Assembly (NCBI GenBank): GCA_000320605.2
Contig: KB445795.1
Span: 309,867-373,866 of the forward strand
Direction of reading: 5' to 3'
DNA length: 64,000 nucleotides
Origin: Gelatoporia subvermispora B
Taxonomy: Eukaryota; Basidiomycota; Agaricomycetes; Polyporales; Gelatoporiaceae
Positions 28,256 through 59,084 of the stretch are shown here, in pieces (the stretch's first letter is position 1; each line of letters opens with the position of its first letter). The position numbers and the translations under genes are program-made. The notes beneath the pieces are model-generated. The model was not told the DNA's origin and made no database searches. It was given only the letters and a program-made list of their open reading frames with translations.

Positions 28256-30911
28256 ATGCCGCGTCCCAGCAAAGGTGCATTCTATGCGGTAGCGAAGGGG
28301 CGCGTGCCTGGGGTGTACTCGACGTGGTGAGCCTAATCCCACGCATGTGATGCGGCACAGCCAACATCCTGAAAGTGTACTGATCATAGGGACGAATGCA
28401 AGGCCCAGGTTGAAGCGTTCCCCGGTGCAAAGTACAAGAAACTAGGCACTCTCGCCGATGCGGAGGCCTGGGCGAAGTCTGCAAGCCCATCCCTTTCGGC
28501 AGCTTCAAACTCGATCCTAACACCCGCGCCGTCATCTTCGCGTTCACAGATCCCTGCGATCGCAGCACCCGCCGCTGTCCCACGAATCCTAGCCCCCGCG
28601 CCACCAACAATGGACGCGAAGGGCAGGTTGATTGTGTACACAGATGGTGCTTGTGGCGGGAATGGCCAGCGCGGCTCGAAGGCGGGTATCGGCGTATGGT
28701 GGGGGCGCAACGATACTCGGTATGTTGCATGACCTGGATGCCGTGTCAGGTGGCTGACGGACTAGCAGGAACCTATCCGAAAGATGCCCAGGAGACCAAA
28801 CTAATAACCGCGCCGAGTTGATCGTGAGTGGCATCTCTTACATCGCGTGCAGTCTGTTTCGAAATGTGTCACTTTCGTGCTCTAAGTACCGCAGCAGCAC
28901 GGCTGACACTCTTTGCCTCACCTTCATCGTTCATCATGCCCTGTGCTGCGCTGCGCGCAGCCATTTCGCCGGTGCTCATTCCGCTGCTGCTCTCAGGCGG
29001 GCTACTGGCTTTCTTCTTTTTGCACACGCTGGTCGTATACCCCATTACTGTCCTCATCGCAGTGCTCACTTATCTCACTGTCGCGCTCTGGCCACACATC
29101 CGTGCTGACCTTGGCCATACCCGCGCTATCCAGGCCATCGTGCGCGCGCTAGAGACTGCGCCAGAGAAGCCCTTGTTGATCAAGACGGACTCGCAGTACA
29201 GTATCAAGTGTACGTTTTCTCTTTGACCACAGTAGCCTGACTCCCATGCCCTAACACTATGCCCTCCACAGGTCTCACGGAGTGGCTGCAGGGCTGGGAA
29301 AGAAAGAACTGGAAGAACTCTAAAGGCGAACCTGTCAAGAACGCCCCGCTCATTCGGTATGCCTCCGCACTCCGCAAGGTGCGGCAGCGCAACGGCAACG
29401 ATGTGCGTTCTCCCCCATGCTTTCTCTTTCCCTCCTAACACGCCACAGGTCGAGGTCGAGTACGTCAAGGGCCATGCGGGCCACGAGGGCAACGAAGGCG
29501 CCGATCGTCTCGCGGTCGCGGGGAGCCTTCTCCCTGAGATGCCCGACGACCGCGACTGGGATACGCTCGCGGAGAAACTCCTGCAGGACGTCGAGGACAC
29601 CGTACGCGCGCGGCGCCTCGAGAAGGAACGTCTCGCGGCCGAGAAGGCACACGAGCAAGAGGCGCAGCGGGTTGCGGAGGAGGCCGAGCGACTGCGCGAG
29701 CAAGAGGCGCTCGTACAGGCGGAGCGCGCGGAAGCGAAGGCACGTGCGCGCGAGGAGCGCCGTGCACGGGAGGAGGAGACAGTCGTGCTCAGCGAGCCGG
29801 AGGAGGACGATGCGGAACCGCAACTGTGGGAGGACATAGATCGGGACGAGGAGGCGTGGGCTGAATACGAGGAGCTCTTAGAGAAGAAGGAGCGCGCGAA
29901 GGACACGGAGGACACGGAGGCGCTAGACGAGAAGCGTCATGCTCAGGATCGTTTCCTGCGCCAATATCTGCGGCGGGAGGCATACGAGGCGGAGGCGAAG
30001 AAGGCGCTGAAAGAAGAGCTGACGGGCGACGTTGTCGTGGATGTGCTGCGCAGACCGACACCGGAGCCGACCGAGCAAGAGAAAGAGTGGAGCCGGGAGT
30101 ACGAGGCAATTCAGGCGATGGACATCGACAGCTTGGACAGGGGCAACATGCTCTTTGCGTGGCAGTTTGGCCCGGACCCGGCCAAATGGGATTGGGTCTG
30201 CAAGAAAGTACTCGCGAAGCATAGTAGGCGGGTAGTCACGGACAACCTTCGCGATAGTGCCCTCAAGATCGAAGAGAAGCTGGAAGCACAAAGGAAGCAA
30301 AAAGCGAAAGCGCAGAAATCGCGGGCGAGCTCGAGCGCAAAACGGGATGTGTACGAGGCGGACGTGGACGAGAATAAACCTAACGGGAACAGCAAGCGCA
30401 ACAAGAGGCAGAAGACTGGCGGCAGCCGCGTACGCGAGGACGATATGGAGGACGACGAAGAGGTGCTATTCGAGCAGGAGCTTGGTCTGCGCGAACGAGC
30501 CGATCCGTCTGCGTCTAAACGCCACCTTCCGCCGACAGCGCAGTCAAATGCGAGCCTCAACAGATCTTTGTCGCCAAAATCATGCCCTTCCATGCGCACG
30601 AACTCTTCGAATACGATAGCTGGACCCGATCATTCCACTGCCGTCATTGTCCGCCAAGAGAGAGTTGGCTCTGCTACGTTCCTGTGGGATCAGGACGGTT
30701 ATCTCTATGCTACTGTGGATGATGGAGTGGAGATGGGTGAAGACGAACTCGCGGTGCGTCACTTTTGTGCCGAGCTTTGGGCCCCCGCCCTTGGCGAATG
30801 CATATATATATATTGATGTGTTAGGACCCACAGGCATACGCAGATGCTCTCCTCAGCGACGATGATGAGGTTCTACTCGAAGTGGAACTGGCAGAGAGCG
30901 TGACCGCTTGA
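28256..30911 (+). CDS. rnh1: Ribonuclease H1 with long coiled-coil extension
   Basis: Seven exons: 28256-28326, 28390-28719, 28769-28823, 29134-29209, 29272-29402, 29449-30753 and 30825-30911, 684 aa. Residues from about 5 to 50 are the hybrid-binding (viroplasmin-like) domain: FYAVAKGRVPGVYSTW, then GAKYKKLGT. The RNase H domain has the four catalytic acidic residues in TDGACGGN, TNNRAELI, KTDSQYSI and HEGNEGADRLA. It degrades RNA in RNA-DNA hybrids. About 430 further residues follow, more than a typical RNase H1 has in total: an Arg/Glu/Ala-rich coiled coil (LEKERLAAEKAHEQEAQR), a conserved-looking block (MLFAWQFGPDPAKWDW), a Lys/Arg-rich stretch (KRNKRQKTG) and an acidic end. Intron 3 is 310 nt, unusually long here. 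The splice frames are all consistent, so I read one gene rather than two. Confidence 0.88.
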
Positions 30912-39749: not shown

Positions 39750-42700
39750 TCATGAAGTATCGTGATGGTCCTGGTCCGGAGGCGGTGGCTCCGAAGTAGA
39801 GGCCTCTTCTACTAGCGAGGGTTGCGGCGGTTTCTTTCTCCTGAGAGAACGCGGTAGAGAGAACGACGGGACGTGCCGCTTTTTCCGTCTCGTCTGCTGC
39901 TGCTGCTGAGACTGTCGTTCTGACAGGTTGCTCTGCAGCCGACGGAGGGCGACACCGTTCTCCTCGGTGGCAAAATCGAAGCCTCGGTGAATCGAGCGGA
40001 GACCGGTTGCCATGTCGGTCTGGCTGGCGTGGGGATGATTGAGGCGACGACCACTGGCAGAGGAGCGGCGGCGGTCCATCTGGCTGAGCGGCCTGCGCAG
40101 GCGGGAGAGGCCTCCCAGTCCGCGGTCCTTCTCAAAGTCACGGTCAGGTTGGATCTTGTGCAACCAGCGTACGCGATCGATGTCGCTGGTAATGTAACCA
40201 AACTCGTACGCCTTCCAAATATAGCGAGGAAGAATTGCGATGACAACGGTGAGGATCATCCCGAACCAGAACTCAGGCGACTGGAACAGGAAGTGATTGT
40301 TGCCGTAGATATCAGAGGCAAGCTCGCTCGGGGGTAACGCATTGTACACCAGCTGTACATGCAACTGTGAGTATGTTAGCTTCTCTCCTGCGAAACGAGA
40401 CGTACTGTGTAGACCCAGAGGAGGACAGGACCGAGCGCCACAGCGAAGAACACCCAGCCGGTCCAGACAGCAATGTTGAGACCATTGAACAGGTTCGACG
40501 CGAGGGCCGCAGCGAAAACCATAGTCTGGTGTTCATCAGCAAGTAAGATCAGAGGTAGACAAGTTGAAGCTTACTGTGGAGAACTCGTATATATACACAT
40601 CGTAACCGTCCCGGCGGGCGGAGGTCGTGGAATACGAGTACAGAGTCAGGAAGAAGACAAGGGCAGACTAAGAGCCAGATGTCAGACAAGGACCCTTTAC
40701 GTTACATGCATGAAGAAGCTTACCTGGACAACACCGTCAAACATGTATACGAGGAACAGGCCCATGCCAAAGTATTTCCCTTCTCGACTGGGACGGTACA
40801 GCTCGGGTAGAGCCATGAGAACATGGTCGTCTAGGTCGTTGTCAGTAAGCGCACTGCCGTGGACTGTAACAATTGACATACCCGCTATCCGGTCGAATAG
40901 TCCCATGGCAATCGGAGGCGCGATCGTCCAGAACGTGTTCCAGAAGAGTAGGTAGGTATACTCCATGACGCTATGATGCCATCATCAGACGTCTACCGCT
41001 GCATGACCTTGACAGAGACTTACTATTCACTACTCCAAGCGCAGTAGATCTGGAACCACCATAGGACACCGATACAAATGATGTTCTTGTAGAAGAAGTT
41101 GACGATCCTAAAGAACGCGGGGAAGTGAGCTACCTAATACAATATTAGGTATACCAAATAGGCGCACATATTGCCGTTGCGAGCGTAAGACCAATGCCCA
41201 TGCACAAGCAGCAATCGCTTCAAGAAGCGGAACTGGATCTCTGTCAGCATGAGTCTCTCCCTAACAACCACCAGGCACTCACCTGCCCAATGGCATAATC
41301 GGACGAGTTGACCGCTTGCAGACCCTCTTCACCAGAGATACCAACGCCAACGTCTGCGGCCTGGATCATACTGACGTCGTTCGCACCGTCACCAATCGCC
41401 AGTGTCATCGCACCCAGCCCGTCCTTCACGAGGCGGACGACGAGAGCCTTCTGGAGCGGCGAGACACGACAGCAGATGACACCTTCGCACTGCATTGCGA
41501 GCCGGAGCAGTAGATACTTCGAACGCTCGTCGTCAAGAGCCTAATGTACCCCTGTCAGGGGCTACCGGCCATATAAAAGGAGAAGGAATGCACATACAGA
41601 ACCGAGAGCAGCACCGTCGATGACAAGCACGAATCCACCCGGACGCTCGCCGTTGTTATGCCCGACGATGTCAGACACTCCGGTGTTGACACGATGCAAA
41701 GGATAGCCCATCGACGGCGAGGGCAGCGACGTCGTCGGGTCCTCCGAAACACCCTCTTCCTCGAGAATGCCACTAGTAGGGAAGAAGTCCTGGACGGCAG
41801 TGTACATTTGGGACCAGACGCTCTTCAAACCGCTCCCGCGGACAATGATGATGTTGTTATCGCGCTGGATCAGGTTCGTGCTGTGGCCGATGGCTGACAC
41901 GAGAATAAGCATGCAAACGAGATCGCCCGAGGAACGACAGCTCACCTATGGCGGTCTCGAGCTTGTCGCCTGTAGCAACCCAGATCTTGATCCCGGCCTC
42001 CTTGAGGTCAGCAATGGTCTCTGGCACACCATCCTGCAGACGATCCTCGATGGCCGTCGCACCCAGTAACTCAAGGTCTTGCTCTAGCTTCTCACACGCC
42101 GCATCGACATTGTCTTCTCGGTTTTTAAGCGACGTGATAGCGTGGTGGTACTCCTCAGCCCACTCCTCGTAGACGTCCTCTGTTATCACATGTCAGCGCA
42201 CATCGCGCGGCAGTGGCAACCTACGCACCAGGGATGACCTTCCACGCAAGGGTAAGCGTCCGCAATCCCTCGCCAGCGAACATATCCAAATGCTGCTCCG
42301 TCGTCTTCTTCAACTCATCATCCCCGGCCCTGAGGCGCTCAAAGATAACATTGTCCGCGCCCTTCGTCAGCAAGTATATCTTCCCATCCTGCTCGTCCAT
42401 CTTCCTTATGACCACGCTCATGCGCTTGCGCGCCGAGTTGAACTCGAGGATATGCAACAGCTGGAACTGCTCGAGCTCCTGCGCGAACGGGTTCTGCAAC
42501 CGCAAGGTATCGCGCTCACGCCCACGGAACACCCAGCCGACGTCCGCCGCAGCCTGCACGAGCGCGGCCTCGTCCGGGCTCTGCGCCTTGTACTCGAGCG
42601 CGCCGGTCTCGGGGTCCACAGCGACGAGCGCAGTGTGGCACAGCGCGAGCGTCGTCCAGAAACCGTACATCCGCTCCGCCTCGCGCGAGCGGCCCGAATC

Positions 42701-44708
42701 CGGCGACGCGCCAACGGCAGCTGCGACGTCGGCGGCGAGCGTGGAGTCCCGGAAGCGCGCGAGGACACCCTGAGCCAACTGCACGGCGCTGGCGCCAAGT
42801 GGATCGGGTGTGTCCTCGGAGCTGGGTGACGTGCATTTCTTGGGGGACCGGGTGCTGGACGTTGTTCGCGAGAGCTCCGCATCGGAGAGCACCTCGACTT
42901 TGTGTGGGACCTCGTCATTCTCCTCGGATTCTGGGTCACCCTTGTAGACGGTTCCTCCAACCGAGCATTGCCGGAACACCATGGCATTCTGCAATCGAGG
43001 TAAGCATGTGTGAGAATATGCGCCATACGAGGACAAATACCTGAGTCAGGGTACCCGTCTTGTCAGAGAAGATGTACTCAATCTGACCCAAATCATCTGA
43101 TAAATTCCAGCTACGGGCAAGGGTCGGCTGTTCCGTCTTCTCGTAGTAAATTTCCCTGTCGAAGTAGATGAACAGTGCTTGGCACGTCCGGACGACCTCG
43201 ATGGAGATGTACAGCGAGATGGGAATAATGTTCTGGAAGCTAGACGGGATAGCGATGAGCCAAAAATAGGTAGAGGAGCGGCGGGAACGCCACGTACGTG
43301 ATCAGAGCAAACGCGAAAGTGACCAATCCGTTGATGTGCGGATTATCACTCTTTTGGTTGTCATTGTACAGCCATGGCGCACTCAGGGGGTAATAATGCT
43401 GCTCAAGGAGTGCATCCGCAATCGCGCACGCGACAGCCATGACAGCGAGGAGGGCCAAATTAACGAACCTGTATCAGAAGCGCCGTCAGCATACTCACAG
43501 CCCCGTTCTCATGTGAAAATGGATACGCACACTTGGGGGTTCATCTGACGCTCCACCTTGCTGCGCTTACTGGGCGCTCCGCCCGAGTTGAGCACAATCT
43601 TCGAGTCCTCCCCAGTGAAAAGGACGATGCCGATGACCCAATGCGTGTTTCGGAGGACGGTTCCACGGAGTAGGATCTGTTGCAGGTCGACGGAGGACTT
43701 GGTCCCGTCCTCCTTTACGACGGCAGCGTTGAGCTTGTAGAGATTGTTATCCGGGCGGTCGCACTCGACGCGGAATGCGTTCCGCTTGTCGGAACATGTA
43801 GTGGCAGAGCGTAAATGTGTGAGGACGGGCGATGCGTTCCGGGACTTGAGATTCGTCTCTCCGTCTAAGTTCTTCGTCTCGACGTACGCCACGTTCTCCT
43901 CCTCCGAGGTAGCGCAGATGAGGATGTCCGCCGGAAATGACTCGTTGTCCATAATCTTCACGAAGTCACCCACCCGCAGATCCTCCCAAATCGTCTTCTT
44001 CCAATGCGGCCGCTCCGAGAAGTCTATGCTCTGACTCCGACTACGGAACCGATGGATTTCTTCTACGGGAACTGAGTCGTCACCACTGTCGTATTCCCTA
44101 TCGTCTTCAGGGGGTGCCTGCTGCGCCTCCTCATCCTTGGTCGGCTTCTTTCCCGAACGTTTCAGTCTGGGCGGGATGCCCGGAACGAACGTCTTGCTCT
44201 TCCCTTTGACAAAGTTCGGGTTGTGGAACTCGCCGCCGGCGAGGACACGCACTGTGGAGTAGTTGACGCGGCGGTCAGACTGATGCCGTTTGACGTCCTC
44301 GTAGCCATCCTTGAGCATGGTAATGCCAAGGACGATGAGCAAGGGGAGGATGACAAGACCGGGTGATACTGTCGGGAAGATAGGGAAGAACTGAAGGATA
44401 GCAATTCCGAGGAAGAAAATGTTTGCGATTCTGCGGAATTGCTCAAGGAGATTGCGCGGGACGAAAGTGATGATAGTGTATTTGGATGTGATGACTTGGT
44501 TAGAATGGTAAATGTGTTCTTTCTTGATTCGTTGCTTCTGGTCATAATAGTCTTCGGGCAGAGGTTGGTTGACATAGACAACACGAGGAGGCCCGGGCTC
44601 CCGTTTGCGCGAGAAGAGAGTCTCGATGTCGGTGTACTTGTTTATTTTGTCATACCATGATGCAAACTTTGAGCGATTTCCGCCCTTGTAAGCGAGCTGC
44701 TTCCCCAT
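39750..44708 (-). CDS. P4-type ATPase, phospholipid flippase (DNF1/DNF2-like)
   Basis: Fourteen exons: 44708-43531, 43468-43298, 43239-43041, 42988-42229, 42179-41946, 41893-41598, 41540-41283, 41232-41168, 41107-41024, 40970-40882, 40830-40724, 40667-40575, 40525-40406 and 40364-39750, 1422 aa. It moves aminophospholipids to the cytosolic leaflet at the plasma membrane or Golgi, normally with a CDC50-type subunit. Diagnostic parts: [17 protein letters not shown] before TM1; DGETNLKSR in the actuator domain; DKTGTLTQ with the phosphorylated Asp near residue 509; [43 protein letters not shown]; and a C-terminal membrane bundle. The last exon encodes TM10 and a basic, Gln-rich cytosolic tail. 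The N-terminal region is expanded by an acidic insert, as in the DNF group. All exon phases are consistent. Confidence 0.95.
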
Positions 44709-47648
44709 GGGTGCAAGGTAGAGAGGGTGCGCTCAGCAGACGAGCAGGGAGGAAGAGAGTAGCATGAGGAGCGGTACAGAGATTGAGGGGTTCGCACAGG
44801 AGTGGGCCTGAGTGGTCAGCGTCCTGACTCTGACATCAGCAGGCGGCATCCACGGCACGTGCCGCGCGTTCTTACCCGACCCAACGCCGCCGGCTCCTCT
44901 CCTATCTTGTTGTTTCCTTTCCGCAACGACTGCGCCGCTCGACGCCAGGCACAGCATCCTACTAATTCGTACTTTCATTTCTCCTCTCTTTCCTGTGTTT
45001 GATTTTGCACCGCAGGCCCATCATACAAAGCAGTCCGGGGTCGGCCGAGCGCATCGCACCCCGATCCGACCTCCGATTCTCTCGCCTGTAATCGGCGTTC
45101 TTACGAGAGCCATTATTTGTCCGGTCCAGCCACCCGGTCCTCCGACTCGACTCGATCACGCACCCGCCGTCACCAACTGCCGCCTCCTTATACCGACATC
45201 CATACCGACGACCCGCATTCGAATGCATTTGCATATTCTTACCTTTACAACGGCGAACTGTTCGCCCTCGCCCGGTCGCAGTTGATTCCTGATATTCCAC
45301 CAGATTCCGGGCGCTCCTTCTTCGGCCATGCGCTCTCACTCCCGAGTGCCACAAACGCCCCACAGCCCCAGCCAGTGCGTGTCGTACACGGTGTCTGCAG
45401 GGTGGACGTTACAACGCGCAAGCAGTACGCAGTCTGGAGAGTAGTGCCAATTGCGATGACCCACAGTATGACCGCGCAGCATATTACTCACACCCAGATG
45501 GTAAGGGTCGCGCATCTATCACTGCTGACGCATCATGGACACGGCAACTAGTCATCCCAATGATCGATCTTGCACACGTATCATATGATGTGGCGTGTCC
45601 CCTTTCGCATACTGAACCTCTCACCTTGTCTCGAAGAGTTGGCGAGACCATTAAAATGGACAAACCAAATGAGATTCTTCCCTACTGCGAGTTGTGCATC
45701 ATTGCGGCGCCTAATATCTACTTTCGAGGTAGCAACCGGGCGTACATTTCTGCAGCAGTCTCTGATCATCCTTCAAGATGTATCACAGCGATATCAATTC
45801 GGAGCCTCGGAGGTATACGGTGTTACACCATGCGCACCTTCTACTTCCCGGCAAGAGTAATTCCTAGAGTCTGTCCCGAGGTTCTAGTCCCAGGCTGATT
45901 CGGAAAAGCTTTCTCATGGCTCTGCGGGGTTGAAGCGGAAATAGGACGTGCCGTATCAGAAGGGCCCCGTGCGCAAGCCAAGAAAGCCAGGGGAATTGCG
46001 AGCCGTTCGTCGCCGTCTATATGCCGAGCTCTAGTGGTGAATATCCTAAATGTTCGACGGTCGTCCTCGATGCACGCAAGACGCACATGGTATGATGTCA
46101 CCAGAGGACGAGGGGCAACCACGATGCTAGAGAACGGGCCCAAGAGATGTTGCTCGACTTGGTAGTCGTCCTTCCCATTCTGGCGAGAAGGGGGTCTTGG
46201 GCTCCCGGAGAGCTCTGCGACCGCGGGTGGTTGAATTCGTGTGACGCGTCGGGGCGCGCTCATTGACGCGGTGCACGTGACAGCGGCGCGCATACACGCT
46301 TCCGGCGCTCGCCGGCCTGTTCAACTCGCCACAGACGCGTCCGGACACAGTCTCAACCAGATACATCCGCGCTCGGATGCCCTTGGCGAGCGACTTCATT
46401 CATGTTACGCCCGCGTTCGTGTTGCCGTGCTACCTTGACTGAACGGTGGTTGCGAGTTGCGATTTCCATACAAATTCCGTACAGGCCGCCGGGCGGGGGC
46501 TGAGTCAGAGACTCGACGAGTTATAGTCGAGTCCCTGCGGAGTGTCGGATCCAGCAAGCGAGGCGGGTTGCCGGGTCCTATGTGCACAAGGTAAGCTAGC
46601 TCAAGAAATCTGCCAAACTCATCTATTTCACGATACACTGCGCTTTGACATCGCCATTGGGACTAAGGAGCTGTCGCTCGATAACATTGATAAGGGTAGT
46701 CTGATACTAGCAGCTGTCACGTCCATAGAGCACCCAGTTACCGACAATCACGTCGGCGTATATGGATAGAACAGCTCAGAAAGGTAATGGCCGATGCATT
46801 TCGGTCATTGAGAACTGTATCCGTTATTTGTGAGAAAACACTGAAAGCTATCCAACCTGTACAGCTCAGATGCAAATTATGGTCTCGAATTGAACCAACG
46901 CACGATCCTTCTGCAAACACCCGGATTACAGCGGTACCTGCAATGGGTCCCTTATTTGAGTGGATATCTGCTCGCATCGTGACAAGCGGGATTTTCTTGG
47001 ACCGCACAAGTCCCCTCGCAGCAGGGAAAGTGCCCTCTGGAACAAGCTGCACAAGCTCGCGAAGCAGTGGGACGCGCTCCCCGCAAAGGGCATTATGGTA
47101 CTGTGTGCCGATGAGGCCGCTGCGGGATAGTTCCGGTACTGCCATCTGGGCTCAATCGCGTCGGCAGTGTTCGACCTCAGCAAGTACAACTCTAGGAGTG
47201 GGCCCGCGGCGGTGGCGCGTGGTAGAGTGTGTGCCAGAGCGAGCGGTAAGAGATCAAGTCTCGTCTTGAATATTAAGGCGGCTTCAATCACCTGCAATCG
47301 ATCAAGCATTCTAGCAAGTCTCCGGTACTTTGGTAGGTCTTACTCGACAGAGTTTGACCGATCACATCTTCGAGCTTGCGCGCAATGTGACCGACACCCG
47401 CACTCGATAACCGAGGATTACGGGACAGTCTCGCTGCGCCGAAGAAGGAATCCCAACACTGTCATCGCACACTTAAAACAGGTTATGGTTGCGCAAAGGC
47501 ATATCATACATAGCAGAGCAGCTCAGTATACCGTATCACAATCTAGCTCCTTGGGTTTGTTGACATCCTCCTGTGTTGTTGCTGATCCTGCTAGACATCA
47601 ACGCGATCGCTCTTATCTCCATTTATATGCTCGACTCACGCGGCACAG
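44709..47648. other. Gene-poor interval with possible coding remnants
   Basis: About 2.9 kb without a gene I can support. A plus-strand frame at 45117-45551 (145 aa, with NAFAYSYLYNGELFALARS) and a minus-strand frame at 45841-46293 (with RIFTTRARHIDGDERLAIP) read smoothly but match no family I know. A plus-strand piece at about 46980-47112 reads ALWNKLHKLAKQWDALPAK and is followed by a stop; it looks like a gene remnant. A diverged repeat shared with 56.3-56.7 kb lies at about 46420-46700. Confidence 0.45.
46420..46700 (+). repeat. Diverged repeat, unit 1 (pair at 56.4 kb)
   Basis: Order-conserved similarity to 56380-56660: a shared block ending TTGACTGAAC then GCGAG, a GGGTCCTA block, and a coding-like block reading LRFDIAIG and then DNID. 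In the second unit the last block reads LHFDIAIW and DNID. Differences fall partly at third positions, so both probably descend from the same lost gene. An 8-bp perfect hairpin (46510-46533) lies inside this unit only. Confidence 0.5.
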
Positions 47649-47869
47649 TTACTCCTCATCTGCCTTAGCGAAAGTAAACGGCCAAATCCCTGCAATCACG
47701 GAAGGGTCAGTGACATGATGAGTACTAAACGAATTGAAGGCTGACCAGTGGGTTCCGGACCTGCAGCACGTCCTACATTGTTTTCAATGGCAGGGGCATA
47801 CCCCGCAGACACTGCGACGATGGCGAGCGCAATGATGCAAATGCTAGAGAATTGGGTGATGAAACGCAT
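47649..47869 (-). CDS. Small secreted peptide precursor
   Basis: Exons 47869-47746 and 47689-47649, 54 aa, joined over a 56-nt intron with a perfect CACTGAC branch. The N-terminus MRFITQFSS plus a hydrophobic run ending AVSA is a good signal peptide (cleavage after about residue 22), leaving about 32 residues. The mature part begins GYAPAIEN and ends IWPFTFAKADEE; it has no Cys and no dibasic site, but carries Tyr, Trp and two Phe. A TATA box of the form GGTATAAAAAGCC lies about 52 nt upstream, closely resembling that of the repeat precursor at 53880. It marks the left edge of the UstYa cluster. It could be a second modified-peptide precursor or a small effector-like protein; I do not recognise a family. 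Confidence 0.7.
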
Positions 47870-47920
47870 GCTTGTCACTTGAAGATGAAGATGCTGCTCG
47901 GACAGTGTCGCCTGAATGGC

Positions 47921-47928
47921 TTTTTATA
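47921..47928 (-). promoter_or_regulatory. TATA box of the small secreted peptide
   Basis: TATAAAAA on the minus strand within GGTATAAAAAGCC, about 52 nt upstream of the ATG at 47869. The core and its flanks match the promoter of the repeat precursor gene. Confidence 0.65.
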
Positions 47929-49235
47929 CCGCTCTGACTCCCTGGTCATGGCTCCCTCAGCCGGTGCCATCCTTCGGCCTACCCCCTGGCAAAGCACTCC
48001 TACGAGATTAGGATATGACTGCGGAGTCAATTTGCCACCAACTTTCTGTCAGGACCAGGGTGTTTAGGTGAATAGGGTCAGAACGTGGTACCGAAAATAG
48101 GTGCGAATGTCCGATTCGAACCCGGCTTCATATCGATTGGTCATATTATAGAGCTAGCATTTCCTGTTCTCAAATACTTCCATGCCATAAATTTTACGCA
48201 CTCCACCAAAACCATAACAGAGGTTGTTGAACCGTCTACTATGGCAAAGGCGGCTACAGCTACGAGTCAACTGAATGAGGCCCGATATCAGAAGAAGCCT
48301 CTGACTTCTTGAATGTATCAATTGTCTTGTCCTATCCACCAGTCCACGATCTTATAATTGTTTGCTTGACACGGAATGCGTGCTGATAGAAGCCGTGTGC
48401 TTGACTTCTTTCTATTCGCATAGTGGATCCTAATATGATAGCCCGCCGGCGACGATTCTTGTCTGGCGCACAAGTCCCATCGACGGTGAAGCTTGAAGCG
48501 TTGCTGTCAACTCGCTCAACACGGTATCTCATGCAAGTCGCGCCCGACCTGGTTTCTTTCGGCACCAATCCTTCCTCAGTCTACAGAGTAGGTATTGTGC
48601 ATACTTATACGATACAAATCATCGCCTGGTATGACTCGTGCTACGAGGGCAATTACTGGAACTTTTTAAGTATGTGAATTATCCATCTTTCCGTGCAGAC
48701 CCCGGTTCTTAACACGGTCTACGCTGCGCCAGCAACTTCCGCTAAGGGAGAAAATTTAGTTAAGACGAGTAAAATAATATCTCGCACCACGCTCATATAA
48801 CTGATAGAACACGTCTATGATAGCGCAACATTCTCCCGATGGAGTCGAGGTGCTGTCCGACACGTGGCACCAACTATACGTACTGTGAACGTACGTACTC
48901 TGTGCCTATATCTGTGATAGCGAACAAATAGGGTTGGGACTGCTGACAGCCTCCTCTGCCTCAATGAATGGACGTGTGGTCATAGCAGGACATTCTCTTG
49001 CAGTTTCAATGCCTGAAGTTTGGAGTCAGAATTGCCGACATGCACCTTGTCATAGAGATGGCGTCAGCAGGAACATCTTCATGGAATAAGTATTTACTTG
49101 TTCTCTTTTCGAGAGTTCGCTCGATTTTGAAGTGCAACGCAGCAGACGAGCTGAATATTGCATAATTCAAGACAAACGTTATGCTCTACGGCGACGACAC
49201 GAAATTCAACAAAGTACAATTAGGGGGAAGATATA
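47929..49235. other. No supported gene
   Basis: Between the small secreted peptide and the first UstYa gene. Only short frames; I searched it for further short precursors with signal peptides and saw none. Confidence 0.45.
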
Positions 49236-49934
49236 CTATAGGTCAATGGTAGAGTTTGGGGGAAATCCACTGCGAAGCATGCGTTCGTTGTCTTCAGCAG
49301 CTAGCCTATACATCTCCGTCCAGTCTTTACAGACGTGCGGAACCCCTATGAATTCATTCCAAGGATTTCGAGGGGCAGGAACAACTGGCTCCAGTGTCGT
49401 GTCAGCCTCGCACAGGATCATTTGGCGTATGTAATTCAGGCAGTGATAAACATGGCCCGTGGCTCTCCCTGCCACCGCGGCCTCGCGAAGCTGCATGAGG
49501 CAGTGATGTTGATGGTATACCGAGAAACCGAAAGGTCTGTTGTCAGGACCAAGGTGTACGAAGCCGCCGCCAGGAGGAAATATGGAGTCCCACTCCTGAG
49601 CGCCTTCATTCGAATAGACGGGATAGTGAACGGTCTCCTCTGGCACGAGAATCACATTGCCTAACTCAACGGGATAATACGCGGGGAAGTCGTCTTCTTT
49701 GTACGCTTTGATTTCAATGAGCGAACACTACATCTTGCAGATAAGTACTAGCTCACTATATGCACGCGTTGACTGCCGCGATCTCGTAGAGTAGACCTGA
49801 CCGATGATCAGGTTAATGATGCCCGTGAGCACGAAGAGAACACTGAGGATGTTGAGCAATGCATTTTGGCGGAACGGTGAAAGTCGTTGTCGGTGCTTAG
49901 GGACCTCTTCACGAGCACGTATGGCCGTGTGCAT
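49236..49934 (-). CDS. UstYa-family (DUF3328) oxidative cyclase
   Basis: Exons 49934-49757 and 49705-49236, 215 aa, with a 51-nt intron. An N-terminal cytosolic tail and one membrane helix (about residues 25-45, LLNILSVLFVLTGIINLIIG) are followed by a luminal domain. Residues 59-75 read YTYKEDDFPAYYPVE, the usual start of the domain. Both copper-binding HxxHC motifs are intact: HQHHC at 124-128 and HVYHC at 144-148, followed by CEADTTLEPV and VCKDWTEMY. Known UstYa proteins install oxidative ring closures on Kex2-processed peptides in ascomycete dikaritin pathways. By family it should act in the secretory pathway on a small peptide, and a candidate substrate is encoded 4 kb away. Confidence 0.92.
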
Positions 49935-50432
49935 TGCGGGGAGAAGGGCGAGGATTGCAACGAGACAGCTGTGATGATCGAACGTCTCGTCGCTCAAGGT
50001 ATGATTGGAATGTAACCCGGGCCGGGCAAGAGGATTCACAAAACACAATGCCTCAATTCCGCGGGACCTCGACGGTCACACGCGGAGGGAATCGAATGTG
50101 ATAGGGCAAACGATCAGAAAAGAAGATAGTGCTGGGACATCAGAAGGTGGTGTCGGGTTAGACATCTCCATTGTGAGAGTGTGATTTCAGAGAGGAACAG
50201 CTCGGGCAAAGAGAGATCGAAAGCTTCGAGCGCCCTGGGTCACGGCCGAGTTGAAGTCGCCACTGCTCGGGTAATCGTCCAGGGAGACGCCGTCCGAAAA
50301 CGCATCTGCCGCCCAGCATCCGTTTTGGAGATGCGACGTTCATTTTCGAGTCTTTGTTCTCCTTGTCCACCGGGACCATCGGACTTCGTGCCATCGATGA
50401 TACATCGAGGCCCAGTATTTCCATCGGACGAA
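49935..50432. other. Spacer between the two UstYa genes
   Basis: 498 bp between two tandem minus-strand genes. A frame at 50158-50595 overlaps the second UstYa gene in another frame and is a shadow. Confidence 0.55.
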
Positions 50433-51061
50433 CTACTTTACGTGCTGCTCGAGTGAGGTGTACACTAGACTCCAGTCTCTGCAAGTATGCTCCATGCCTA
50501 AACCGTTGACACCGATACCGCTTGTCAGCTGCTTCACCGGTTCCAGTCGCGTGCTCGCGGCGCAGAGGCTCAACTGATGGACATAATTGAAGCAAAACGT
50601 CGTCGTGTTTCTATCCTCCTCGTTAATCCACGACGCGTCTACGATGGCTTTGCGGATGATATTCAAGCAATAGAGCTGGTGGAACATGGTCACCCGGAAG
50701 AGACGACGATCGGGTCCCAGGCGAACATATCCGCCTCCCTTGGGAAAGAGCGTGAGCCATTCCTCGTCATTAGTTGGGCCGTAGTGGAGGGTTTCCTCAA
50801 TGGTGAGTTGCGCATCATATGGATGCTCGTCGTATGGAATGAGGGAGTTCGGGAAGACGGACTCGGTGGTGTAGGCTGTGAATTACCCGATGTCAGGCCA
50901 GGCAGTAAGCAGATATATTTCCACTCACAATTTAAGTGAAGCTGTTTGCCGCCTTGGTTATGCATTGCGACGAGGATGAAGCATATGTTGAGCAGGATGG
51001 CACCGGCGAGCAGGACAGCTGCGCCTACGGAGGCATATGTCTCTCGGCGTCGCTCCATCAT
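50433..51061 (-). CDS. UstYa-family (DUF3328) protein with degenerate HxxHC motifs
   Basis: Exons 51061-50929 and 50875-50433, 191 aa, with a 53-nt intron. The N-terminal membrane helix is at about 11-33 (VGAAVLLAGAILLNICFILV). The luminal part aligns well with the family: EEWLTLFPKGGGYVRLGP, then FRVTMFHQLYCLNIIRKA, then FCFNYVHQLSLC, STRLEPV and TCRDWSLVY. The first motif is HQLYC (110-114, second His replaced by Tyr), and the second is TTTFC (135-139, both His lost). The copper ligands expected from the family are therefore mostly missing. It may be a non-catalytic partner of the intact UstYa next door, comparable in idea to paired UstYa/UstYb use, or a divergent enzyme. It is divergent from the membrane-protein gene at 51439. 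Confidence 0.85.
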
Positions 51062-51438
51062 TGTTGCACCCTACCGGGACTGGGTGGCGAGTGGTCAGCC
51101 TCGCAAGAACAGGTCCTACTACTTAGAGTACTAAGCGCAGTCATGAACTTCCGCGAAGACACATTTTCATCACCGTACTTGTCGCTTGAAATTGAATTGT
51201 ATGAAGCTCAGTCTCACGCTCTTCGGTCGCGGTGCGCGCTAATCGTGCTTCTCGAGCTTGACAGACGGGGGCTCCTGATGCAGAGTCCGGGCATAATTGA
51301 GCCATGTGCATACTCTGTCAAACTCGAGAATGTGCCGGAGATTGCCTCGGAATTGGTCGTTTACCAGCTGCATCGATATCGCTGTTATCATCGAACAGTC
51401 CTCGCCTGCTACTCGACCCGCCGTTGTAATCCCATACG
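51062..51438. promoter_or_regulatory. Divergent promoter region
   Basis: 377 bp between the start codons of the second UstYa gene (minus) and the type II membrane protein (plus). The arrangement allows joint regulation; I could not identify a shared binding site by eye. Confidence 0.35.
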
Positions 51439-52330
51439 ATGGACGCCTCCAAACACGAGTACATTCCGCTCAGCCCCACTGACGAGGATCACGAGCTCCT
51501 CTCTGAAGAAAATAGCACTATCAAGGAAGACATCCATCAGAGCACTGGAGGTACCTCATGGAATGGCTGGACATTGTTCCTCGCTGCTTGTATACTCTCC
51601 GCTGCACTTTCTGCTATCAACCTCAGTATCCTTTCCGCCGTCCAGACTATACGCGTTCTTCCCACTCCCATGAAGACCCCCTCTGTGTACATAGGCCTCG
51701 ATTCCTTACGAGGGAAGAACAATACCTTGTGCCGAAGTAGGGTCACATATCCCGAGAGTGTCGCGACCTTCGAAAAGGAGAACGTCCGCGGGAGGACGCG
51801 TCTGCATGCACCGGGCGACAAGATGATCTTGGAGCTTGGTGGCACTGTACGTTTTAGAGCTTGCTCCCCGTACAATGATCTCAATCACTACCCGAAGAAA
51901 TCTGCCTATGTCGACTTTCGCATACCAGACTACGGGCTGGAGAACTGCACACTGAGCTTGAAACGCAATGACACGTCCTCGCCTCCAGCTTTAACGCAGT
52001 ATGCAGCCAACGTCGAGATATGGCTGCTTCAGGACGAAGGCAAACTTAAGAACAAAGTCCTGCTGGATACGCTCAACTTCGCAAATGAAACTCAATCTAC
52101 CACAGCTCCATTCTTCTGTCCTGCTCAGTCGCACCTCTTTTTCCAACTTCGCTGTCCTGGAGAAGGATGCCACGTTCAGATCCCCCTTCAGAACGTCACC
52201 GCGATGAGTAAGCACCCGATCCAGCAGACTGCGTACGTAGGCTGACGCTATCTTAGCTGCTAGAGTAGATTCGCGTCTCCAAACAAGCTTGAGTTTGACT
52301 CAGTACGAGGGGTTAACTTGTATCTCATAA
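51439..52330 (+). CDS. Type II membrane protein associated with the UstYa genes
   Basis: Exons 51439-52207 and 52257-52330, 280 aa; the 49-nt intron has a GCTGAC branch. The cytosolic tail starts MDASKHEYIPLSPTDEDHEL. One membrane helix lies at about 44-68, followed by PSVYIGLDSLRG and a luminal domain of about 190 residues. That domain has several N-glycosylation sequons (NNT, NCT, NDT, NET, NVT) and six or more Cys, including the block VDFRIPDYGLENCTLSL. From memory, proteins with YIGLD after the helix and an FR-DYG-E-C block are multicopy in Agaricomycetes and often sit beside UstYa genes; their function is unknown. The topology would place the domain in the same compartment as UstYa. Confidence 0.75.
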
Positions 52331-53811
52331 CCCTGTACATAGAACGCATCCCTTCGGCAATTAATCGTGTACTTCGACGGGGCATCGCTTGATACCTTGT
52401 TTAACTCGAGCAAGCGGGCGTTGGAATCACTACAGTAAGCATGAACTGATGACTGTTTGCACCTTACATGATGACTTCGTGGATCATCCATTCGCGACAT
52501 TACCGTGGACTCCGAGTATCTCACTTGGGTCGAGCCCTGAGCGGCATAAACGTCAAGTCTTGCGGGTTCGCGGCTCGGTCGAAACTCATGTACTTTGGTG
52601 TAGACATCCTCTTCCTCCGGATTTCCCATATCCGGTCACGCTCAATTACACTTTCTGACGTGAGCAAGTTATAGATGAACATAATTGTCCATGTATCTTT
52701 GTGGCAAAAAGGCACGGATTTCTCCATCTGTCACCCCTATCAATCATGATGTTGATCGCTGTCACCAAGACCGGGGCACATCTCTTATTGACACGGATCT
52801 ACGGCTCCAGGGAAGATCAAACGGTCTACCTAGGCCTCAGTACAACGGGTGATCGGTCAAATTCTTTTCAGCAAACCGGTGCTTTAGAGATCCGTCTGAT
52901 GTACTAAAATGTTGAGAAGAAACTTTGATGCCCTGCTTTGAGGTTATACAGACTCGACAAGAGTCACACACATTGCATCGGCAATGCATCGATAGTCAGC
53001 TGCGACGCCGCCTGGGAGCGTGCCCCTGCGTTGACCCAGGGACCACCACCTCAGGTCTCTGTGATTTCTTGACACACCGTCACATTCAACTGTACGGATC
53101 TGTGATCGGGCTTCGATCGACCGTTTCCCTGATGTCTTTTCACCATCTTCGTGAGACCCGTGGGTGCCGTAATCGTCTATGTACACTTGGGGATGGTCGT
53201 CGGGTAATTAAATATCTGGGAAGGTCATTGAGAGTAATTAGTGTGCGAGTACAGAGTGCTTAACTGATTTTCACATGGGCTTGGAACTCTGGTCGAACTA
53301 TGCTCTCTTGGCGAAGGCAGATCGTATACAATAGTCATGTTCGGCTGCTGTCATGTCAACTTTTGCTAATCTTTTGCAAGTTCGTGGGAGTTCTCTTCAT
53401 ATATATGGGTCACGAAGTGATGCGAACCGGCTGCCATTGCAAACGTCAGTCTTCGAATGTTTTACGACACTGATTCTTGTTGTGATACCAGGCAGCTGAC
53501 CTGTCCATGCGAACGATCATCTCCAGCATTTTACTGCAACCACCTCCGGAACAGCCAAACACCGTCTATCTGATTGGCAGGCATATTGAGAAAGTGGTGT
53601 TTATGGCGTTAACAGTCATGCACAGGTTCAGGCACCAGTAGAAACTACATCTTTGAGGCTGATTCGAGGTAGAGGCACTGAATGGTATTGCCGACACCGG
53701 CCATATGTTCGTGTGCACACGGTCTCAGGAGGCAAAGCATCATCGGCATCGCCAGAGGTTAGCTCTGCGTATGAGTGATTCAGCTGGACGATGTTCGATG
53801 GAGAGAAGTGG
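52331..53811. other. Interval with possible relics of the membrane-protein family
   Basis: No intact gene. Two short plus-strand pieces, at about 52740-52880 (reading DQTVYLGLSTTGD) and 53507-53610 (reading QPNTVYLIGR), resemble the post-helix part of the protein at 51439. They may be remnants of former copies. The remainder shows nothing recognisable. Confidence 0.4.
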
Positions 53812-53819
53812 TATAAAAG
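53812..53819 (+). promoter_or_regulatory. TATA box of the repeat precursor gene
   Basis: TATAAAAG within GGTATAAAAGCC, 60-68 nt upstream of the ATG at 53880. Confidence 0.65.
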
Positions 53820-53879
53820 CCTAGGTGACGAAAGGCGGAACCATCAGGCTCCAACTCCTACATCGCAACATCCACCGCC

Positions 53880-54264
53880 ATGCACTTTTCCACCGCCATT
53901 GTGAACGTTCTCACTTTCGCCTGCGCCCTCGGCATGGCTTCCGCTGGACCGAATGGGGTGACACGGGAGGATGGTGCGTTCAGCAGCATCGCGGTCAGCC
54001 TCAAGCTAACCGATTAATTATGATTATCCAGAATTAATTCGGGATGTTGACGACTTTGACCCCAACATTAACAGCGGGTGGTTCGCCAGCGGTGCACGCC
54101 GTGACGATGAGGCAGAGTTTGACCCCAACATCAACAGCGGGTGGATCAACAGTGATGCACGCCGGGATAATGAGGCGGAGTTTGACCCCAACATCAACAG
54201 CGGGTGGATCAACAGTGATGCACGCCGGGATAATGAGGCGGAGCTCCGCGCCATTGACTGGTGA
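53880..54264 (+). CDS. Kex2-processed repeat peptide precursor (putative RiPP precursor)
   Basis: Exons 53880-53973 and 54032-54264, 108 aa; the 58-nt intron has a GCTAAC branch. Residues 1-22 form a signal peptide (MHFSTAIVN, hydrophobic core, ASA end). After a short acidic leader come three tandem 21-residue repeats (from residue 40), each starting FDPNINSGW and carrying Ala-Arg-Arg followed by an acidic Asp/Glu-Ala-Glu stretch. Arg-Arg at 54-55, 75-76 and 96-97 are Kex2-type sites; the Glu-Ala pairs after them could be trimmed by a dipeptidyl peptidase as in yeast alpha-factor. Repeats 2 and 3 are identical in DNA. The precursor ends in AIDW. No Cys is present in the repeats; the conserved Phe and Trp are candidate targets for UstYa-type cross-linking. 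Family knowledge and location support the role; chemistry and bioactivity are unknown. Confidence 0.85.
54055..54243 (+). repeat. Three 63-bp in-frame tandem repeats
   Basis: Units 54055-54117, 54118-54180 and 54181-54243. Units 2 and 3 are identical over 63 bp; unit 1 differs at 12 positions, changing residues after the conserved Trp and in the acidic linker. Identity of 2 and 3 points to recent duplication or gene conversion inside the precursor gene. Confidence 0.95.
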
Positions 54265-54954
54265 GCACCAAATCTGATCAAGTAACAAGACCCAGTAATT
54301 CATAATTGACATTCGGAGTAGACATTGAATAGGTTACATGAAGGCTTCATTGGGATGTACCAGTCACGACACTGGGCGCTTTAGTAGATGTTATGTTCCT
54401 TCGAGGTGAACAGATAATTTCGAATGATTTCGGAGTGTATGCGAGAGCTTCACACACGCGCGACTGAAGAGGCTGAGCTGGGATACGGATCCGCTGACAG
54501 ACGAGGTATAAAGTTGCTTGAGACCTGTTTCTATATGACACCGTCGAATAACAAAGATATGAAGAGGCATTATTCCAGAGCTGCAAAATTCCGCGAAGTT
54601 TCGACATATAGATCGGAATCAACGCATTTTAGGGGCGCTTGATTCTCACACCAACTTCAGGGTAGGGCGACCGTTTGTCGGGCCGACTTGTGGGTGTCGC
54701 GCTGCACGGCATTGGTTCCGGCGTCTGAGGGTACAGAGGACTCAGCGCACCTCGAAGGCGTGATGGTGGATTTTGAATTGAATGGTCCTTCGGTTCGAAG
54801 GTGGATGAGACGCCCGGTGTCTTCGACCACGTTCTTCTAGGCTCGAACCCGTCATCTTCACTCACTGCAATGGACCTCTGCATCTTGCAGGAAAAGATTA
54901 GCAGAATCTCTCGCGAATGGTCACTTTCTGTCAAATTTGTTTTCGAGCTGACGC
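54265..54954. other. No supported gene
   Basis: Between the precursor gene and the PUS4 remnant. The minus-strand frame 54629-55066 overlaps the remnant antisense and is not supported. Confidence 0.45.
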
Positions 54955-56660: not shown

Positions 56661-57433
56661 ACACGGTCGCAATGCACTTGACGATTGCGTTAAGACAGGC
56701 TAAGATGAAAGACTATTTCAAGATGAGTATTGCCTTTCTGCGATATCTGCTTTGAAAAGTCGATTCATGTAGGACAGGATATCCTAATGTGCAAAGTCAC
56801 AGTTACGTCGACGATCCTCAGTGGCGTCAGTTTCCGTGTGGACCGCATCCCAAGGTGATCGGCGATAACTTGTATGTACACGAGCACTGCTTCCATCTCT
56901 CCAAATTTACAATGGAGAACGAGTTCGGCAGCCCTTCAATGGAGATCTGGTATCGACCAACCATTCCTTTCCGTGATAACGGCGTCATGATGCACAACCC
57001 AGCTAGAGTCGCACATGTATGGCGCCAGTCCTGTCACCTCGAACTCGATCTGTTCCATCTCTCGGCAGTTCAATGTCGCTGCACACTTGAGCGCATACAC
57101 ACTGATACGTCGCAATCACTAGCGGAGACTTGAGCTCACATTGGCACCATGCTGCTCCGTCTACCTGACATCAAATTAATAACACGCCACCCGTTACTCA
57201 TACAACCATCATCCTTCGGTCGAGTCAATGTTATTGCAATACGTATCATCTGACGTGACACCTTATTCCAAGCAAGATCTACTCTCGCTGTCCATCGCAG
57301 CGAATCGCCCGGGAAATGCCGTCTGAGCTTCGTCGTACGTATATAAATCCTTTGACCGTGTCGCTTGCACCTTGGTTGCCTCCACCCCATACTCCAAACA
57401 TCAGTGCTGGTCACAATCTTTCAAAGGCACAAA

Positions 57434-59084
57434 ATGCTACACCTACCTGCTGCTTTGAAGCCATTTGCTCACATTGACGCCCTTGTGGCTGAGTGCGTGC
57501 CTCTTCTCCATCCAAATATTACACTGATACATTTCCTTGTGTTCAGGCGGGCTGGGTATAGCAGCACAGTTGCATCTTGCGGTACGTCCTCTGCATGTGC
57601 AGTGTCAACGCCAGCCACAGTAATATCTTGTCCAGTCCTCGTCCTTTACCACCACATGACCTCATTACCGCTAGAAGTTGAGGTTATGTGGGGACGGAAG
57701 CTCACCAGTGTTACTGCGCTCTTCTATCTTAATAGATGGATTGTCTTTGCCTCTTCTGTCATCAAATTATGTAATGCGATCCCAATGACGAGACTTTCGG
57801 TATGTTATAATTCTATCTCACGCAATGCTCAAACTTCTCTTACTTCTCAAGAAAAGGGGTATGCATCTCTTCCGTTTTTCCTTACGATGCGACTGATACA
57901 ATTACTGCATGGCGTTGCTAGATGTATCATATATGGCGACATCGATATTGCTACTCAGATACTGTTAATGATTGTATGCGCGTGTGAGTGTGCTGGTATC
58001 ATTTATTGGAAACACATATGATGACTCGGAGGCAGCTATCTCCGCCACCCGTGTTTATGCGATCAGCGGTGGCAGCTGGTTTCTCGCCTACACCATGCTC
58101 ATTCTGACGTCAGTCTCTGTGGGAGCGAACGTGGTAAGTGCTGCATCTGTGAACACAGGACCTATCTTTGACAACGAAATTAGTATATCAGTTACTTTAG
58201 AGAATACCGTAAATTGACAATGGTACCAGGAATGGGCATTCAGTGCTTGCAAAGACTTTCCCTCTCCGAGTGAGTTCATTTTGAGCACGTAAGTAATGTC
58301 CTTGTTCATATCGGGGCAGAGGTTGATCATAGATCAGATGTATGTTCATAGCTCTGCATGTCTTCGTCAAATCTCACTACGATCCAGTAACAATAACCTC
58401 AGACATATGTCTCATAACATCGAGTGTCCTACTGCTGCTTGTTACGTGGGTCAAGACCTTTCGTATGAGAAGAGATGCCAGTCATAATGGAATCCGACTA
58501 CCACTAGTGGAAATGTTGCTCATAGATGGTATGAACGTATCATTTTCTTACTTTTTAGCTAATAGTACGTTCAGGTACTCTATACGTTTGGTAAGCAGTT
58601 TAATGTTCTCCGAGTAGAGTCCGTATGATATTGTGCAGCTTTAAGATAACGATGCACGTACTGAACGTGCTGCAAAATACCATTCCTGTACGCTCTCATG
58701 GCAGAATTACACTCTAAACTCACACGACTTAGGGCCTACACACTCTCAATATCCCGGAATTCTCAATGTCGTTAGTACGAGATCCGAATGTGTCGATATC
58801 TATTGATCTGCTCCAGGCTGGAATCCATCCTACTCTCGGATTTCCTTCTCCGTCTACGAAAAACGGCAGCAAATCCAGCAACCACTGGACTTTCTTTGTT
58901 AAGCTCCGAGCGGTCAACCCTCCGTTTCGCCTCATTCGTAGATAACATGGGCGAGGAGTTATACTATGATTCCAATGACGTTGAGCTCAATGTCTCAGGC
59001 CACTGGGAAGAAACTCATGATGACGAAGTCTTGGATGCAAAACAGACGAAGAGTCTTGTCTCGGAAACACGAGCCACAGGGTAG
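57434..59084 (+). CDS. DUF6533 multi-pass membrane protein (exon structure approximate)
   Basis: Pieces follow one another in the family order. MLHLPAALKPFAHIDALVAE is at the start. VLVLYHHMTSLPLEVEVMWG then RKLTSVTALFYLNRWIVFA (57633-57755) form the DUF6533 domain. SATRVYAISGGSWFLAYTML is at 58042-58100. TITSDICLITSSVLLLLVTW then VKTFRMRRDAS is at 58395-58490, LLIDG at about 58512-58530, and SSERSTLRFASFVDNMGEEL at 58898-58957 forms the C-terminal tail. Several short introns join these parts, but I could not prove every junction; some pieces may be broken. The family has about seven membrane helices and unknown function. It may be intact or recently decayed. Confidence 0.55.

Follow-up and report, generated by a model that had tools for sequence, protein, structure and literature searches.

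The window analysed here is a stretch of 64,000 nucleotides from the wood-rotting polypore Gelatoporia subvermispora B, a basidiomycete (G000:C5:309867-373866 of a 37.7-Mb assembly). At 47649..54264 it contains a compact set of five genes, which encode two proteins of the UstYa (DUF3328) family (UstYa1 and UstYa2), a membrane protein, a short secreted precursor (preB) and a secreted precursor with three repeats (preA). We consider this cluster to be, probably, one copy of a recurring module for RiPP-like products (RiPP, ribosomally synthesised and post-translationally modified peptide), a variant of the dikaritin type in which an intact and a deficient UstYa protein are likely to form a heterodimer. 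The gene set had been proposed by a model that read the sequence without database searches (the sequence-only reading), and it was confirmed at this place: three of the genes have models in NCBI and the other two are Pfam members, which is more than chance would give (Table 1).

Judged by their motifs, the two UstYa proteins of the cluster are not equivalent; only one is intact, the other being without the copper site. CctR is a copper-dependent, disulfide-linked homodimer whose two-copper site is made up of the four His and two Cys of HxxHC(x)nHxxHC; activity was abolished when Ala took the place of these His and Cys (PMC12435403). UstYa1 (215 amino acids; exons 49934-49757 and 49705-49236) reads HQHHC...HVYHC, the double HxxHC arrangement with four His and two Cys, and has 4/4 His and 4/4 Cys. 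UstYa2 (approximately 191 amino acids), which reads HQLYC...TTTFC, has 1/4 His and 4/4 Cys and is a PF11807 member without the double HxxHC. Both carry an N-terminal hydrophobic stretch, as seen by eye.

The same division was found throughout the genome. There are 22 UstYa exons, 13 with all four copper-ligand His and nine with 0-2 (2/4 in five, 1/4 in three and 0/4 in one); none has three. The motif Cys are kept in 22/22, and so are two others. These others, residues 106 and 133 of the UstYa1 exon, are candidates for an inter-subunit disulfide, as by their spacing they may correspond to C190/C213 of CctR. Each deficient exon lies less than 13 kb from an intact one, and all nine are without internal stops in the match. 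They make up nine intact/deficient pairs: W (the window), C5b, C5a, C4a, C4b, C11, C24 and two on C25 (the last ~12 kb apart), where the pairing was our own choice. The partners co-diverge. When the distance matrices of the intact and deficient members of the nine pairs were compared, the Mantel r was 0.96 (p = 5e-5), and 0.92 (p = 5.5e-4) after removal of a recent duplicate of the cluster that is described below. On the UstYa tree, in which the motif columns were kept, the deficient label takes two changes, and none of 500 label shuffles was as low; the deficient state may have a single origin.

Members of the membrane-protein family were found at nine places (W, C5b, C11, C4a, C4b, two on C25, C24 and, weakly, C7). 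Three whole-genome queries and a local profile placed all nine less than 3 kb from a UstYa exon and gave no member in any other place, although these counts may be lower bounds. At eight loci, the divergence of the membrane protein was correlated with that of either UstYa protein (r = 0.88-0.89; 0.85-0.88 without the duplicate). Our model of the protein in the window has 263 amino acids in three exons (51439-51846, 51898-52208 and 52257-52329); the NCBI model CERSUDRAFT_93574 has 251, with the first intron removed and the second read through. The third exon was included because of the way in which the homologues CERSUDRAFT_93607 and Obba end. The protein is predicted to be a type II membrane protein facing the lumen, with one N-terminal helix and a predicted beta-sandwich, in a structure model of low confidence (predicted local distance difference test, pLDDT, 52.7) whose fold matches are weak and of common kinds. 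It belongs to no Pfam family at E<=0.01; UniRef names several of its homologues after the But2 C-terminal domain. Homologues outside this genome are found in Obba rivulosa (60%) and in two Mycena species (39% and 37%), with one further homologue at 30%.

The duplicate lies approximately 105 kb from the cluster. In a blastn comparison, window 49282-54613 aligns in inverted orientation to G000:C5:473296-469009 in three pieces (80.7% over 3861 columns, 77.8% over 180 and 77.4% over 274). Both UstYa genes and the membrane protein are kept there. The ratio of nonsynonymous to synonymous substitution rates (dN/dS) between window and duplicate is 0.20 for the main exon of UstYa1, 0.12 for the main exon of UstYa2 and 0.22 for exon 1 of the membrane protein; purifying selection has acted on all three between the two clusters. 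The gene for preA is absent, as an 826-bp segment that holds it (window 53516-54341) is missing from the duplicate by blastn. This bears on the sequence-only reading, which had proposed that this basidiomycete has a peptide cluster centred on UstYa, defined by a Kex2-cut repeat precursor together with UstYa, and had treated UstYa genes kept in related genomes without a nearby repeat precursor as incompatible with its proposal. Just such an arrangement exists within the same genome, in the duplicate at C5:469.0-473.3k, which retains UstYa1, UstYa2 and the membrane protein. The UstYa-centred cluster stands, but the repeat precursor does not define it.

At the junction in the duplicate where preA is lacking, 22 bp separate the aligned flanks, inside a perfect 20-bp tandem repeat (G000:C5:469251-469288) that looks like a repair scar. 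Because of this duplicated filler at the junction, loss of preA from the duplicate by end-joining suits the data better than a gain in the window. A second stretch missing from the duplicate (window 53076-53335, 260 bp) has no recognised gene in it. Tandem arrays at C5:468072-468310 look Pro/Ala-rich by eye. We also considered whether the duplicate's membrane protein is a frameshifted copy; this was rejected, as the break is an intron in the NCBI model CERSUDRAFT_93607.

Both clusters have a short precursor. In the window, preB (54 amino acids, phase-1 intron 47690-47745) has a signal peptide according to a home-made hydropathy rule (not SignalP) and ends in ...GIWPFTFAKADEE, with a single C-terminal candidate core, ...PEPTG-IWPFTFAKADEE. 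In the duplicate, a spliced gene at C5:473872-474073, beyond UstYa1, encodes MRFFTAIANALVLALAVTMVSATPAPPGKPDELDSDANAIWPCTAC, with the C-terminus ...AIWPCTAC. The two have IWPxT in common at 35% identity overall, and they lie on the same side and strand relative to UstYa1, downstream of it by 1.4 kb (preB) and 0.6 kb (duplicate). The DNA from UstYa1 to the precursor aligns poorly between the two clusters. A phase-1 intron behind the signal-peptide region is common to preA, preB and the duplicate's precursor. In exon 1, preA and the duplicate's precursor share 43/69 nucleotides, a value reached by none of 20,000 codon shuffles; by the same shuffling, the duplicate's precursor and preB share 36/69 (p = 1.5e-4), and preA and preB share 32/69 (p = 0.004), which is less clear than the first comparison. 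On this similarity, exon 1 of preA is homologous to exon 1 of the duplicate's precursor.

Candidate short precursors, with a signal peptide and a phase-1 intron, were found beside 9/9 UstYa pairs. The scan looked for a signal peptide followed by a short intron and a short second exon. A tight branch-point rule missed even annotated genes and a loosened version missed preA and preB, but a widened 5'-splice rule finds preB. In the 143.8 kb that lie no more than 5 kb from UstYa exons, the scan gave 12 distinct phase-1 sites, compared with 0 in 105.7 kb at greater distances (p = 8e-4, with one nested start counted twice). On 30 dinucleotide shuffles of 198 kb, it gave 0.27 sites on average and 1 at maximum. 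Sites in other phases were C25:180777 (also phase 1) and C3:656691, both near UstYa, and C11:289962, which is far from it and in phase 0. Outside the counted scan, looser rules yielded preA, C5:236104(-), which ends in ...SPDWGWVDEGPISE, and C25:193340(-), which ends in ...EELAWL.

The candidate cores ...RPLACCV (C4) and ...TLALCF (C11) are alike, and the short motifs shared between candidate precursors are as expected for families of cores. A dibasic site precedes the core in some candidates (C11:279283, C3:658901, C4:1171407 and C25:183923). The second of these, on the (-) strand, reads LRR-DDSEYSALFGHSVPC, with an Arg-Arg site, and is located by an intact UstYa that stands alone, with neither a membrane protein nor a deficient partner. 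C24:243221 and C24:255622 share DARFF, while C25:180777, 183923 and 193340 show AENFAYL, VEDFAYL and VEELAWL. The linker NVGRA is common to preB and C4:1604907, which are otherwise different.

The repeat precursor preA has 108 amino acids and a phase-1 intron at 53974-54031. Its signal peptide for the endoplasmic reticulum, found only by a looser form of the hydropathy rule, is followed by three tandem units of 63 bp, each with an ARR end and of the form (spacer)FDPNINSGW[FI][AN]S[GD]ARR. Tandem Repeats Finder (TRF) gives 92% matches for the array; units 2 and 3 are mutually identical and each is 83% identical to unit 1. Repeated cores parted by Kex2 dibasic sites are the plan of a dikaritin precursor. 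In the database comparison of precursors, which covered preA and preB, preA had no homologue besides CERSUDRAFT_93575 at E<=1 (5.77e9 proteins; 194 candidates scored). It is an orphan whose three cores are set off by Arg-Arg Kex2 sites.

As copper enzymes anchored in the membrane, with a large luminal domain, DUF3328 proteins have been tied to hydroxylation, halogenation and macrocyclisation (PMC12435403). In the phomopsin pathway, a DUF3328 protein has also been linked to desaturation. We propose that the short precursor enters the secretory pathway via the signal peptide of exon 1. The phase-1 intron would part this signal exon from a variable exon, which encodes a linker that is often acidic and, at the C-terminus, a core containing Trp, Phe, Tyr or Cys. 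The intact UstYa, with its copper pair held by HxxHC(x)nHxxHC, would oxidise this core in the Golgi lumen by cross-linking, hydroxylation or desaturation. The deficient UstYa, in which every cysteine is kept, would most likely pair with the intact one as a disulfide-linked heterodimer and shape substrate binding, and the membrane protein may hold or present the substrate with its luminal beta-sandwich domain. In this scheme, by which we infer the chemistry and products of the module, the short precursors and preA would be the substrates; the copy in the window would have two of them, preB of the shared single-core type and the three-core preA.

It seems unlikely that the cluster is instead a classical dikaritin pathway, with preA as the substrate, Kex2 cutting after ARR, both UstYa proteins cyclising the core FDPNINSGW[FI][AN]S[GD]A and preB as a bystander. 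Such a pathway would account for the signal peptide, repeats and dibasic sites of preA and for its position less than 5 kb from both UstYa genes, but the duplicate keeps the UstYa pair and the membrane protein under selection without preA, and UstYa2 has no copper site. In addition, preA is without homologues in the search given above, and no second precursor-like array was recognised among the arrays at other UstYa loci, which were not each examined. Less probable still is an explanation in which the short secreted peptides act as linear signals or effectors and are mere neighbours of UstYa proteins that modify something else. In its favour, unrelated small secreted proteins are numerous in fungi, and the peptides of Kex2-processed repeat proteins (KEPs) that were detected in Agaricomycetes had little or no modification or were linear (PMC9769878). 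Against it, the scan gave phase-1 precursor genes close to UstYa but not one in the 105.7 kb at greater distances, and preB and the duplicate's precursor retain IWPxT, side and strand by UstYa1 at only 35% overall identity. Finally, the 1/4 copper-ligand His of UstYa2 could mean that the deficient UstYa is decaying in a non-functional cluster. We regard this as very improbable: among the three exons compared, that of UstYa2 has the smallest dN/dS, and the nine deficient exons keep four Cys, have no internal stops and co-diverge with their intact partners.

Several observations weigh against the recurring module with paired UstYa proteins. The scan relied on the home-made hydropathy rule, and its rules were fixed only after the first candidates had been seen. 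Among the 12 counted sites, C5a 238739 is the membrane exon of UstYa itself and C25:201671 is doubtful, and the precursors of the pairs C5a and C25:193340 come from looser rules only. Four intact UstYa exons (C7, C3 and two on C11) are without a deficient partner of their own; no membrane-protein homologue was found at C5a and C3, and at C7 no precursor was found and the membrane-protein match is weak (E 0.004). Purifying selection on the deficient UstYa was measured for 1/9. The precursor preB and that of the duplicate have a single core and neither repeats nor a dibasic site to account for their release, and no homologue of them was found in other species at E<=10 (a single candidate scored, preB itself). 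All evidence for recurrence comes from one genome, and the membrane protein can be followed across species but the precursors cannot.

Table 1. Features of the cluster, in coordinates of the window
Feature	Position	Strand	Basis
preB, short secreted precursor	47649..47869	(-)	model identical, letter for letter, to CERSUDRAFT_93571
UstYa1 (intact)	49236..49934	(-)	PF11807, E 2.4e-17
UstYa2 (without copper site)	50433..51061	(-)	PF11807, E 2e-12
Membrane protein	51439..52329	(+)	CERSUDRAFT_93574 and homologues
preA, Kex2-type secreted precursor with three repeats	53880..54264	(+)	model identical, letter for letter, to CERSUDRAFT_93575
Tandem array inside preA, 3 x 63 bp	54055..54243	(+)	TRF and repeat finding

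The sequence-only reading had seen no obvious tyrosinase, methyltransferase or P450 in the cluster, and our searches agree. The tyrosinase matches of the genome (C9, C10, C11:674-676k and C29) are all away from the UstYa loci. No Pfam match to a methyltransferase or P450 was obtained among the open reading frames scanned in the window (10 + 2 + 10, the last 10 being small flanking frames), although small exons could be missed. Methyltransf_12, the sole methyltransferase family searched genome-wide, is absent from the UstYa loci. Exons of a flippase (phospholipid-translocating P-type ATPase) adjoin the cluster at window 39753-44732 (-), and an open reading frame at window 29236-30813 (+), with an RNase H match barely above the Pfam cut-off, is possibly part of a retroelement. 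An exon for a seven-transmembrane protein with DUF6533 at window 57356-58018 (+) was rejected as a linked receptor. As matches to this family number at least 150 genome-wide (150/255 candidates scored), no linkage to UstYa is claimed and the gene was left out of the cluster. DUF6534 has 61 matches in the genome, none at the UstYa loci.

In its outline the cluster resembles the ascomycete dikaritins (ustiloxin, phomopsin, asperipin-2a and victorin), in which a signal-peptide precursor lies beside UstYa/DUF3328 genes, and preA has Kex2-flanked repeats as well. Unlike these, it comes from a basidiomycete and has a dedicated membrane protein; its recurring type of precursor is short, with a single core and no repeats; in each UstYa pair one protein is without the copper site; and no tyrosinase match occurs at the UstYa loci. 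Dikaritins have been filed under ascomycete RiPPs in a review (PMC9233826). The Ding-type definition, with tyrosinase and methyltransferase in the cluster, was later relaxed, according to a lichen survey (PMC12048977). Because the tyrosinase/methyltransferase feature is lacking as far as tested and the recurring precursor has no repeats, we regard the cluster as a variant UstYa RiPP cluster rather than a dikaritin proper. Borosin precursors are fused to their own methyltransferase, unlike preA and preB, which have 108 and 54 amino acids and no Pfam domain. Cycloamanides and borosins are processed in the cytoplasm by an S9 oligopeptidase (PMC9769878), whereas our home-made rule assigns a secretory signal to both preA and preB.

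In a survey of KEPs, a DUF3328 gene was located near 103/1680 (6.1%) of the basidiomycete KEPs, compared with ~30% in Ascomycota, and the authors suggested that in Basidiomycota the cyclisation motif might be a different one or cyclisation might be almost absent (Umemura 2020, PMC7329392). Our preA fits the KEP definition, but the survey rules cannot find non-repeated precursors such as preB. Pleurotus has 16 UstYa genes (PMC8893723). With 22 UstYa exons here and many UstYa in mushrooms, yet DUF3328 rarely near repeat precursors, short non-repeated precursors would be a third answer, if true. The recurrence of the module could be the reason that so few peptides of this kind have come out of searches in mushrooms. 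More tentatively, and with somewhat greater doubt than belief, we suggest that mushroom-forming fungi may hold a large unrecognised RiPP class with short single-core secreted precursors, an obligate heterodimer of copper-binding and copper-less UstYa and a dedicated membrane protein. Repeat-based searches would miss this class because its precursors have no repeats, and preA would be such a precursor turned into the repeat type. The membrane protein could serve as a marker for such clusters in other basidiomycete genomes.

In open-licence literature, judged by title and abstract start, we found no report in which intact and deficient UstYa are paired, or in which a UstYa cluster of a basidiomycete has short precursors with a single core, which is no proof of absence. 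The nearest earlier statement found is that of the lichen survey, whose authors raised a single core peptide as a possibility (PMC12048977). The putative dikaritin clusters of that survey have DUF3328 genes, paired in one clan, and some have signal-peptide genes and putative Kex2 sites without conserved repeats. They differ in being ascomycete and in having two HxxHC in all signature genes, and the available text describes no intact/deficient pairing or membrane protein. UstYa1 itself is like CctR, with HxxHC(x)nHxxHC and an N-terminal hydrophobic stretch. However, CctR is a homodimer of intact subunits (PMC12435403), whereas here the partner that has lost the copper site is a constant feature, and the intact/deficient pair is a direct departure from that homodimer.

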